In this document: positions 26,717 through 31,060 of the stretch, piece after piece
Layout of the letters: each line of letters opens with the position of its first letter
Position numbering within the stretch: position 1 is the first letter of the stretch
Assembly: GCA_946527885.1 (NCBI GenBank)
Contig: CAMMYO010000005.1
Coordinates: 1 to 33,446, forward strand
DNA length: 33,446 nt
Direction: 5' to 3'
DNA from: an uncultured Candidatus Saccharibacteria bacterium
GTDB lineage: Bacteria; Patescibacteriota; Saccharimonadia; Saccharimonadales; Saccharimonadaceae
The notes under the pieces: generated by a model
Databases searched by the model: none
Seen by the model: only the letters and a program-made list of their open reading frames with translations
Told to the model about the DNA's origin: nothing
Position numbers and translations under genes: made by a program

Positions 26717-28417
26717 TTACATCTTGCTTGGAATCTCAATCCCAAGCAAGCCTAGCGCATGCGATAGTACAAAATCAGCCTTCTCTACCAACCACAGACG
26801 CGCCGAGCGCTCCATATCATTCGCCTGCAAGATCGGCGTTTTTTCATAATAGCGATTCAGCGCCTGCGCCAATTCAAAACAATAACCCGCAATCCGATGC
26901 GCTTCAAGATTCTCGCCAACCGTCGCCACTAAATCTGGGAATTTCAGCAATAGGCGCAAGATGTCCTTCTCGCTCGCCCAATCGTAATCCGCAAAATCCA
27001 CTCGCTCAAAATCCGCATTTTTCTCCAAAATCCTGCGCAAACGCACGTCCGCATATTGGCAGAACGGACCAGAACAACCAGTCAGCGCAAAAATCTTATT
27101 CGGGTCATACAAAATACCCGTCTTGCGATCCGCCACGAAGTCACTATACTTAATCGCGCCTGTCGCAATCTTCGCGATATCCTCATCGCTCAAATCACTC
27201 GCGCCCGTCGATGCAAAGTTCGCCCGCACTCGCGCCTCGGCGTCATCCAACATCGCCTCGAGCAAAACTACACCCTTGCGGCTCGACATTTTCTCACGCT
27301 TGCCGTCCTCGGACACCTGATCAATCGTGCCGAACCAGATGTGAACGTTCTCGACGTCATAGCCAAGCTTCTTACCCATCGCAAAAAGCTGCTCAAAATA
27401 GAACTTCTGCTCTGCTCCCACGCAATAGATATTCTTGTCTGGATGCCATTCGCGCACGCGATAATCCATACAGGCCAAATCAGTCGTTGCATACAGCGCC
27501 GTACCATTACTTTTCAAAACCAAAATCGGCACATCGATACCGTATTCATCGAGACGGCAAATCACCGAGCCGTCATCATTCTGCTCAAACTTGCCCTCGG
27601 CAAGATATTTTTTCACGAGTTCCTTGCCAGGCTCCGCAAAGAAACTTTCACCCAACTCGTAATCTGTCGAGATACCAAGGCGCCTCATTACTTCGTGCGT
27701 ATGATCAAGCGAAATCTTCTTAAATGTTTCGGCGTATTTTACCGCCTCCGCATCTTTCGCCTCAAGCTTCTTTAGCCATTCCTGGACTTCGTCCGCCAAT
27801 TCATGCTTATCTTCAGCCGCCTCGTCCTTGAGCGCCTTCTTCATCTGGATATAAATCTCGCCCAAATCGTAAATCGTCACCTCATCGAGCGACTTACCAG
27901 AGCGCAAAAAGCCCAAAGTCCAAATACCGAACGGAGTACCCGTGTCGCCAAGATGGTTATCGGTAATCACCTTCCAACCATTCGCCTCGAGAATCTGCTT
28001 AGTAGCCCAACCCTGCGTACCTGGGCGCAAATGCCCTACCGAGTAAGGCTTTGCCATATTCGTACTCGGAAATTCCACGACCGCAACCTTACCTTCGCCA
28101 GATTTATTGCGACCGTAATCGTCCGACCAAGCCTCAGCTAGCTGTTTTTGCAGGCTCGTGCCCGAAATCTCTACATTGATAAAGCCCGGGCCAGCAATCG
28201 TAAAGACAAAACCATCGGAATCTTGACGCAGACGCTCGACAATCTCCTCCGCAATTTGACGCGGAGCCTTGCCAGCCTGTTTCGCAATACGCATCGCCGC
28301 ATTCGTCGAGTAGTCGCCCGGAATGTCCGCAGGAACATCCGCAAAATCGACTATCGCGCCGTCAATGGCGTAAAGCTCTTTGATAACTTCTGCGATTCGA
28401 TTCTTTAAGTTTTCCAT
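26717..28417 (-). CDS. argS: arginyl-tRNA synthetase
   Basis: FPSTNMAKPYSVGHLRPGTQG (HIGH-like), REKMSSRKGVVLLE (KMSK), GPFCQYADVRLRRIL. Confidence 0.95.
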   Translation of the reverse strand: MENLKNRIAEVIKELYAIDGAIVDFADVPADIPGDYSTNAAMRIAKQAGKAPRQIAEEIVERLRQDSDGFVFTIAGPGFINVEISGTSLQKQLAEAWSDDYGRNKSGEGKVAVVEFPSTNMAKPYSVGHLRPGTQGWATKQILEANGWKVITDNHLGDTGTPFGIWTLGFLRSGKSLDEVTIYDLGEIYIQMKKALKDEAAEDKHELADEVQEWLKKLEAKDAEAVKYAETFKKISLDHTHEVMRRLGISTDYELGESFFAEPGKELVKKYLAEGKFEQNDDGSVICRLDEYGIDVPILVLKSNGTALYATTDLACMDYRVREWHPDKNIYCVGAEQKFYFEQLFAMGKKLGYDVENVHIWFGTIDQVSEDGKREKMSSRKGVVLLEAMLDDAEARVRANFASTGASDLSDEDIAKIATGAIKYSDFVADRKTGILYDPNKIFALTGCSGPFCQYADVRLRRILEKNADFERVDFADYDWASEKDILRLLLKFPDLVATVGENLEAHRIAGYCFELAQALNRYYEKTPILQANDMERSARLWLVEKADFVLSHALGLLGIEIPSKM

Positions 28418-28537
28418 ATCTTATATTTTACACTATTTTTCAAAATTCTTGCACATCTCCCAAAATAGTTTATAATAGCGGCCACATGTCGCTCATTTTT
28501 CTTGCACATTTCCCAATGCGAGCTGTTGCGACACACC

Positions 28538-28565
28538 TTGCATTTTTGGCAAAATAATATATAAT
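28538..28565 (+). promoter_or_regulatory. promoter of ncRNA candidate
   Basis: TTGCAT-N16-TATAAT; a second similar promoter TTGCAC-N16-TATAAT lies at 28449-28476. Confidence 0.65.
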
Positions 28566-28571
28566 ACGCAT

Positions 28572-28831
28572 TGACAGTACAGGTGTAAGTTGAACTGCGC
28601 AAGCGGCATTATAAATGCCACCTCTGCGTCCCGCTTTTCTTCCGGGTGCGCGCCCATGATTTCATTCGGCGGCGCCGAGATACTGTCGTTCCTTTGCGAC
28701 CTGCGATACATGTTGCCGTGCGGGATTCCGCAATCTTCGATTGCCTCACTTTAGTGAGCCCATGGAATCCCTATAACTCAAGCACGGCACCTCCGCAAAA
28801 TACAGCCGGCCATTTCTGACCGGCTTTTTTA
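28572..28831 (+). ncRNA. structured non-coding RNA candidate of unknown family
   Basis: Between a promoter and an intrinsic terminator (AGCCGG-CCATTTCTGA-CCGGCTTTTTT). Nested helices TGCCGTGC/GCACGGCA and GGGATTCC/GGAATCCC enclose hairpins GCAATC-TTC-GATTGC and CTCAC-TTTA-GTGAG; a further helix GACAGTA/TACTGTC. Confidence 0.7.
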
Positions 28832-28836
28832 TGATC

Positions 28837-29331
28837 TTAATCTGAGTGACTGCCACTAGAGCCATCGTGGCACGCTGCATCTATCGCAATATTCACCAAC
28901 AGTGCTGGCAATTCCTCCGTTTCATCCACGATATCGAGAATATAGGTATCGCCCCAACTCAATAACTTTTTCTGTACATAGAACACAGTCTGACCGTTCG
29001 CCTCGCACCGATAACTCCAGCCAAACAAATCGCCTTCAACTTGCCAACCTCCATAATCGACTTCAAACTTCGGTTTCAAGAACGAAAACAGCCGCTTAAT
29101 GCGCCCTACTGACTGTCCATGTATGAAAATTTCATATTCCTGCAGCAGCACCAGCACCTTCTGCTTAATGTATCCAACTTCTTCATTTGTCGCCTTGTCG
29201 TAGATATGAATGCTCTTCCCCAGGCTAAACAAATCAGCTTTCACATAATATTTCGCCTGCATTTTCTCGTCATAAACGTCATAAGTATCCGACCAAGAAA
29301 ACACGCGCTGCTTAATCAGAAGTTGGCTCAT
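28837..29331 (-). CDS. LURP-one-related (LOR/YxjI-like) protein
   Basis: KQRVFSWSDTYDVYDEKMQAKYYVKADLFSLGKSIHIYDKATNEEVGYIKQK. Confidence 0.8.
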   Translation of the reverse strand: MSQLLIKQRVFSWSDTYDVYDEKMQAKYYVKADLFSLGKSIHIYDKATNEEVGYIKQKVLVLLQEYEIFIHGQSVGRIKRLFSFLKPKFEVDYGGWQVEGDLFGWSYRCEANGQTVFYVQKKLLSWGDTYILDIVDETEELPALLVNIAIDAACHDGSSGSHSD

Positions 29332-30923
29332 TTTTTCGACGCCGCCTTTAGCAAACCGGCAAACATCGGATGCGCGCGATACGGACGACTACGATATTCT
29401 GGATGACCTTGCGTTGCTACGAAATAATCACAATTTGGCGCTTCAACAAACTCTACCAACGCGCCGTCTGGGCTTGTACCTGCAATTTCCAAACCGCCCG
29501 CGCGAATTTGCTCAGTAAACTCTTGATTTACTTCATAGCGATGGCGATGTCGTTCAATAACTTCCGTCGCGCCATAAATTTTCGCCAACTTCGTTCCTTT
29601 CTTCAGGACCGCAGGATAGTTACCCAAACGCATCGTACCGCCGGTGCTTTCCTTGCCTTGCTGGCCCTCCATGATGTAGACCACGTTCTTGCCTTCTTGC
29701 GCGCCGAACTCTTCCGAATTCGCACACTTTACGCCGCCACGACGTGCTGCTGCAATCACGGCTACTTGCATACCAAGACACAAACCAAGATACGGCTTAT
29801 TATGCTCCAAGCAGTACGCCGCTGCTGCAATCTTGCCTTCGACGCCACGAATGCCGAAGCCACCAGGCACCACAATGCCGTCAACATCAGCAAAATCCGC
29901 ATCCGTTGCTTCTTCAGCGTTTATCCAAACCGTCTTCAAATCAACGCCAGCTTCCCAAGCCGCCGCCTTTAGCGCCTCGGTCACCGAAAGATAAGTATCA
30001 GTGTTATCGACGTACTTCGCCACCATACCAATACGCACAGTTTTTGTCGGCTTCGACTCAATTCGCTTCACAAGCTTTTCCCACTGCGACATATCCGGAT
30101 CGCCATGATCAATAAAGCGCTCCAATGGCGCCAACACGCCACTCTTCACCGCATTCAACGGCACCTCATATACGCTTTTTGCGTCCGGCATCAAGACCAC
30201 CGCATCTTCGCGTACGCCACAGAAAGTCGCCAACTTCGAAGCAACATGCGGCGCTTTCACTAACTGATCAACATCCATGCGCGCAACAACCATATCTGGA
30301 ATAATGCCAAATTGACGCAAGTCGCGCAACGAATTCTGCGCCGGCTTCGTCTTAAACTCCTGCGAAGTCGATAGCCACGGCACGTAGCAAACATGCACAT
30401 AAAGACAATTTTCGCGACCAACCTTTGTCGGAAACTCACGCACTGCTTCGATAAAGTGTAAACCTTCGATATCACCAACCGTGCCGCCAATCTCGACAAT
30501 ATGCACATCTGACTCAAAATCACGTGCATTATCCAAGAAAGTTTGCTGCACCATATTCGTCACATGCGGCACCAGCTGCACGGTTTTGCCGCCAAATTTA
30601 CCCGAACGCTCCGCATCAATCAAAGTCTTGTAAAGCTTACCGGAAGTCCAAATCGAGTTGCCCGTCATTTCCTCATCGAGAAAACGCTCATAATGCCCCA
30701 AGTCCAAATCAGTCTCGGCGCCATCACGCGTCACGAAACATTCACCATGCTCGCGCGGATTCAATAAGCCAGCATCGACATTAAAATACGGGTCGCACTT
30801 CTGAATCGAAACCTTCAATCCCTTCGCCTTCAAAATTGCGCCCATACTAGCCGCCATAATCCCCTTTCCTACACCAGAAATTACGCCGCCTGTCACAAAG
30901 ATATATTTCGTTTTTGTTTTCAT
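29328..30923 (-). CDS. pyrG: CTP synthase
   Basis: KYIFVTGGVISGVGKGIMAASMGAILKAKGLKV, glutamine amidotransferase GLCLGMQ, RHRHRYEVN. Confidence 0.97.
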   Translation of the reverse strand: MKTKTKYIFVTGGVISGVGKGIMAASMGAILKAKGLKVSIQKCDPYFNVDAGLLNPREHGECFVTRDGAETDLDLGHYERFLDEEMTGNSIWTSGKLYKTLIDAERSGKFGGKTVQLVPHVTNMVQQTFLDNARDFESDVHIVEIGGTVGDIEGLHFIEAVREFPTKVGRENCLYVHVCYVPWLSTSQEFKTKPAQNSLRDLRQFGIIPDMVVARMDVDQLVKAPHVASKLATFCGVREDAVVLMPDAKSVYEVPLNAVKSGVLAPLERFIDHGDPDMSQWEKLVKRIESKPTKTVRIGMVAKYVDNTDTYLSVTEALKAAAWEAGVDLKTVWINAEEATDADFADVDGIVVPGGFGIRGVEGKIAAAAYCLEHNKPYLGLCLGMQVAVIAAARRGGVKCANSEEFGAQEGKNVVYIMEGQQGKESTGGTMRLGNYPAVLKKGTKLAKIYGATEVIERHRHRYEVNQEFTEQIRAGGLEIAGTSPDGALVEFVEAPNCDYFVATQGHPEYRSRPYRAHPMFAGLLKAASKK

Positions 30924-31060
30924 TTTCTGGGCACCTCCTCTTCTGCCCACCATATATATTATATTTTAAGCATAAAAAATAATCGCAGCCCGCGCAAGCA
31001 TTGACATTCCATATTTAGTGTCATAATACTTGCGCAAACCGCTACATTTAGTGCTTATTA

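Follow-up and report, generated by a model that had tools for sequence, protein, structure and literature searches.

What kind of gene lies between argS and the gene of a LURP-one-related protein (LOR) in a metagenome-assembled genome of Saccharibacteria, and what might its product do? The window analysed here, a stretch of 33,446 nt, carries a predicted plus-strand transcript in this gap, and pyrG (CTP synthase, minus strand) comes next after LOR. The relatives of its argS are from rumen and gut Candidatus Saccharibacteria. The initial annotation had read the element as a free-standing structured non-coding RNA of unrecognised family and had described a promoter, helices, a bulge and a terminator. 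All of these elements are present at their described positions (Table 1), and the reading as a whole holds up: two other species carry orthologues that share the promoter, the terminator and a covarying structure, and Rfam gave no credible match at 28573-28830, either at the gathering threshold or at E<=10. A conserved structured RNA gene very probably exists at this locus, as judged from only three sequences. On the basis of sequence comparison, we regard it as a new family of small RNAs with a narrow distribution, lineage-specific to gut and rumen Saccharibacteria.

Table 1. Positions of the features discussed in the text (window coordinates unless a contig is named).
Feature	Position	Strand	Remarks
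argS	26717-28417	-	Pfam tRNA-synt_1d; one flank of the RNA gene
Sigma-70 type promoter	28538-28565	+	TTGCAT (at 28538)-N16-TATAAT (28560-28565); perfect pattern match
Structured small RNA	28573-28830	+	258 nt, predicted transcript; start inferred 7-8 nt past the -10 box
5' domain, three-way junction (P1, P2, P3)	28573-28687	+	Helices fit all three orthologues; covariation tally
P1a	28573-28579/28681-28687	+	GACAGTA / TACTGTC
P1c	28582-28585/28673-28676	+	5' domain helix
Junction strand J1/2	28586-28597	+	UAAGUYGAACUG; most conserved unpaired stretch, one Y varies among the three orthologues
P2	28598-28601/28625-28628	+	5' domain helix
P3	28631-28634/28669-28672	+	5' domain helix
3' domain	28714-28789	+	P4, one-sided bulge, P5, apical hairpins
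P4	28714-28721/28782-28789	+	TGCCGTGC / GCACGGCA
P5	28722-28729/28764-28771	+	GGGATTCC / GGAATCCC
P6, apical (capping) hairpin	28730-28744	+	Joined by hairpin CTCAC-TTTA-GTGAG
One-sided bulge	28772-28781	+	TATAACTCAA
Proposed anti-Shine-Dalgarno seed	28786-28794	+	GGCACCUCC; P4 end and unpaired CCUCC, complementary to the pyrG Shine-Dalgarno
Intrinsic terminator	28804-28830	+	GCCGGCC-ATTTC-TGACCGGC (stem 28804-28825), then T6; stem and T-run kept in all three orthologues
LURP-one-related gene (LOR)	28837-29331	-	PF04525; other flank of the RNA gene
pyrG ribosome-binding site	30921-30938	-	GGAGGTGCC-CAGAAA-ATG; suggested target
Tandem units of the sister clade	L034:3254-3373, L034:3421-3603	+	Also in L035 and L036

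The locus shows several features of a structured bacterial sRNA: a promoter and an intrinsic terminator that belong to it alone, the lack of a conserved ORF and a covarying structure (on three sequences). Perfect promoter matches with 16-nt spacing occur only twice in the window, both just upstream of the RNA, and four sites with at most one mismatch were found where 0.44 were expected. Both orthologues have exactly the same -35 block, TTGCATTTTT, and the same TATAAT box. The second perfect match, TTGCAC-N16-TATAAT at 28449-28476 (+), lies 89 nt upstream of the RNA promoter, with a small hairpin and a T-run behind it at 28477-28502; this upstream promoter is missing from both orthologous loci. 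A generic promoter/terminator scan missed both the RNA promoter and its plus-strand terminator, because it assumes TTGACA as the -35 consensus and scored the terminator on the minus strand only. That minus-strand match was found at the RNA terminator, which is probably bidirectional and also serves the minus-strand pyrG-LOR operon; such a role can explain the A-run after CCUCC.

The transcript folds more stably than expected by chance, at -91.8 kcal/mol versus -73.6 +/- 4.6 kcal/mol for shuffled sequences (z = -3.9), and none of 200 shuffles was as stable. Its architecture became clear by comparison with orthologous promoter-RNA-terminator units, which we located by taking argS from relatives and inspecting the DNA upstream of it. 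Such units are present at the corresponding position upstream of argS in two other species (L032, UBA4387; L033, CAMJQQ), whose argS is 93% and 90% identical to that of the window. The RNAs share 56-64% identity versus 82-86% for argS DNA, and therefore the letters of the RNA evolve fast. Seven helices nevertheless fit all three sequences, at a cost of 4.6, 0.6 and 2.6 kcal/mol above the unconstrained optimum. The joiners of the 5' junction are 12/2/0, 12/2/0 and 13/2/0 nt long, and the one-sided bulge of the 3' domain measures 10, 11 and 10 nt. Two species show a clear P1a; in the third it is weak (5 bp, including one G-U). When the RNAs of the relatives were folded independently, their minimum-energy structures again contained P4-P6, the one-sided bulge and stems like P2 and P3.

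Many of the substitutions in these helices are compensatory. For the 3' domain, standard pairs make up 93.6% of the pair cells in the model alignment, versus 24-38% when the partners are slid against each other; six pairs changed on both sides, where 2.7 were expected, and only 3 of 500 shuffles did as well. When the strands of all helices were placed by hand, two-sided changes still paired in 38 of 43 cases, a count biased towards structure since the placement was guided by complementarity. The matched letter changes in the stems indicate that the RNA is maintained by natural selection.

The family is narrowly distributed. A 14-letter junction pattern, J1/2 with its adjacent CG, occurs in only three of the 45 genus genomes, and a search with a 3'-domain covariance model placed the family in exactly these three. 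BLASTN of the RNA in 60 relatives recovered only the two orthologues by sequence, the remaining matches being terminators or chance. Covariance models of both domains detected no credible member beyond the three species in 396 genomes of the order, a sample drawn evenly from a larger group with one genome per species, so that rarer members may be missed. Additional matches to the 3' domain model in the genus and the order were, where inspected, terminator-only or in coding sequence, and additional weak matches to the 5' domain model lay within or overlapped open reading frames. In viral contigs, 24 pattern matches were obtained and none was backed by the covariance models; phage and plasmid records yielded no match to the RNA. 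Intrinsic terminators whose loop region reads CATTTCTG (e.g., CGGTCATTTCTGACCG) are found repeatedly in the genus at unrelated positions (e.g., in L132, L134, and L135), which accounts for weak false matches to the RNA model. The initial annotation had considered a "new small RNA class"; a new sRNA family is what the data show, and "class" overstates so narrow a distribution. In a sister clade (L034-L036; argS 78% identical), two other promoter-RNA-terminator units lie in tandem between argS and pyrG. No homology of these tandem RNAs to the present RNA and no Rfam match were detected, and their pairing with their own pyrG leader was no better than that of shuffles.

The RNA probably acts as a small regulatory RNA. 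The best explanation of the whole, which we advance tentatively, is a lineage-specific, trans-acting sRNA that works in an anti-Shine-Dalgarno (anti-SD) mode and has pyrG among its targets. Its plus-strand transcript would start and stop at the promoter and terminator of the RNA gene itself and would act on other RNAs through base pairing. Pairing would be seeded on SD sequences by the conserved CCUCC that lies 3' of P4 and 5' of the terminator, would extend into GGCA and open the end of P4, and would thereby block translation start, with the leader of the neighbouring pyrG mRNA, which reads GGAGGUGCC in all three species, as a candidate target. The 5' three-way junction may be a stabilising domain or one for sensing or protein binding. 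Blocking of the SD by exposed C-rich motifs is an established sRNA mode in Firmicutes, as in LhrC (PMC4132741) and IsrR (PMC9410917), which led us to look for GGAGGTGCN(1-10)ATG in the three genomes. Only two such sites are present in the genome of the window, one of which is at the pyrG start, and the pattern is also found at pyrG in both other species. On the side of the RNA, the site reads GCACCTCC, GCACCTCC and GCATCTCC in the three orthologues, so that (G)GCA[C/U]CUCC is kept in all of them.

The predicted helix between the RNA and pyrG (GGCACCUCC/GGAGGUGCC) comprises 9, 8 and 9 bp in the three species, with energies of -18.0, -14.7 and -15.4 kcal/mol; the third species carries GCAUCUCC, which results in one G-U wobble. 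The helix of the window ranks second among its 34 start regions. Shuffled RNAs reached the energy of the pyrG pairing in 12 of 500 cases for the window and in 47 (9%) and 94 (19%) of 500 for the other two species. When the cost of opening each partner's own structure is included, accessibility scoring gives the pairing no advantage, and the predicted accessibility of CCUCC ranges from 0.17 to 0.77 depending on the species. CCUCC could also pair with many SD sequences. Furthermore, the leader motif GGAGGUGCC is equally conserved in many congeners without the RNA, and therefore no co-evolution of RNA and target is visible. Taken together, the computed pairing is suggestive of anti-SD action as the most likely mechanism and of pyrG as the best single candidate target; the combination of this mode with pyrG among the targets is possible and at present rather doubtful.

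The pyrG leader has a structure of its own. At 30921-30955 (-), it contains a conserved hairpin, GGUGGGC-(N)-AAGGAGGU-GCCC-AUG, with the SD in the loop. The hairpin is also present in L061, L062, L066-L068, L073, L080, L082, L083, L087-L089, L091, L093, L095, L122, and L124, with a compensatory GGGU/ACCC in L091 and G-U in L083 and L124, and it is lost in the clade of L063-L065. It resembles a cis-regulatory hairpin that sequesters the SD of CTP synthase.

The C-rich anti-SD sRNAs of Firmicutes (LhrC, IsrR, RsaE, and FsrA) are, like the present RNA, free-standing with their own promoter and terminator, and both have a C-rich stretch able to pair with the SD (here CCUCC). The present RNA differs from them in that it has no sequence relation or Rfam match to them, is larger and far more structured, and has a single conserved C-rich site just 5' of the terminator; its candidate target was predicted by computation.

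The main rival to the anti-SD mode is a protein-binding or scaffold RNA, in which the three-way junction and/or the repeated unpaired motifs CUUAUGUCCAAAU, CUCAUGUCCA, and UUUAAGCCAA titrate a protein without mRNA pairing. 6S and CsrB-type RNAs bind and titrate a protein. Consistent with such a role, conservation is highest in the UAAGUYGAACUG strand of the junction and in the 2-nt joiner rather than in CCUCC alone, and the bulge is the most accessible segment of the RNA (97-100% unpaired by prediction), with its CC-AA end repeated in the apical loop of both relatives. However, the genomic context suggests no protein partner and the RNA matches none of the protein-binding RNAs in Rfam, so we judge this reading somewhat unlikely. 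A further binding partner, either a protein or a ligand, is suggested by how strongly the junction is conserved. The covarying stems of the junction around an almost invariant strand resemble three-way-junction riboswitch aptamers, a likeness of general architecture only: the present RNA has no Rfam match, no same-strand downstream gene and no visible expression platform. An aptamer-like or protein-sensing junction that controls the exposure of the CACCUCC anti-SD and tunes pyrG translation would make the RNA a trans-acting, signal-responsive sRNA of new architecture, which we regard as a long shot.

Little seems to have been described of regulatory RNAs in Saccharibacteria and other Patescibacteria, and our literature searches did not find a paper on the small RNAs of these bacteria themselves. 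A covarying sRNA with a strong promoter and terminator restricted to one young clade would provide a concrete new regulatory RNA in streamlined episymbionts. If the trans-acting anti-SD sRNA does target pyrG, it would be tied to nucleotide supply in these bacteria; if the junction controls the anti-SD, the translation of CTP synthase would be adjusted in an episymbiont with few regulators.

A divergent housekeeping RNA, i.e., 6S, SRP RNA, RNase P or tmRNA, is very unlikely. SRP RNA was not found in the three genomes (G000, G003, and G024, of which G003 is rated 100% complete) with two bacterial SRP models (RF00169 and RF01854), and 6S was not found in the genus, which leaves both unaccounted for; the size of the RNA would also suit a large SRP RNA. 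On the other hand, an RNA present in only 3 of 45 congeners, and in three species in all, does not fit a housekeeping RNA. The models of 6S, SRP, RNase P and tmRNA gave no match at the locus at E<=10 and the GGAA core motif of SRP domain IV is absent. The class A model places RNase P RNA at another site in each of the three genomes, and tmRNA likewise lies at another site in two of them (G003 and G024); ARAGORN found no tmRNA in the window. The SRP RNA of the three genomes may be either divergent or really absent.

The suggestion of a divergent 6S RNA in particular is not supported. Like 6S RNA (RF00013), the present RNA is stable, free-standing and highly folded, but 6S RNA is a single rod with a central bubble whereas the present RNA consists of a three-way junction and a separate bulged 3' domain, and, unlike 6S RNA, it is confined to three species. 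The 6S model was unmatched both at the locus and in the genus genomes, and literature searches did not find a report of 6S RNA for Saccharibacteria or Patescibacteria. At L128:1501-1654 (-), in a genome from another family of the order (G038), the 6S model gave a match below threshold (32 bits, E 2.7e-5); it lies near an RNase P RNA gene (L128:768-1104) and is a possible candidate for a 6S RNA of Saccharibacteria.

A minus-strand leader of argS, such as a T-box-like element, would be compatible with the position of the region just upstream of argS and with the stable fold of the minus strand as well. However, inspection by eye shows that, throughout the genus, argS keeps a TAAAAT-like -10 box no more than about 20 nt from its ATG, located between the element and the gene, and therefore the element is not the argS leader. 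Both the perfect promoter and the T-run argue for the plus strand, three variable pairs are G-U when read as plus-strand RNA and would become A-C mismatches on the minus strand, and no T-box match was obtained at the locus, which makes this reading highly improbable. A small mRNA for a short peptide, as might be imagined from the unrelated plus-strand short-ORF genes at this place in other congeners, can be dismissed almost completely because, as had been noted earlier, there is no convincing ORF: the plus-strand candidates lack an SD, their frames are not conserved between species, and the indels are not multiples of three.

The slot upstream of argS is also occupied in congeners L038-L041, L043-L045, L047, L048, L050-L053, L055, and L058. 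There, it holds a unit opposite in strand to argS, with a strong promoter, a hairpin-bearing 5' leader, a strong SD and a small-to-medium ORF that encodes a charged protein.
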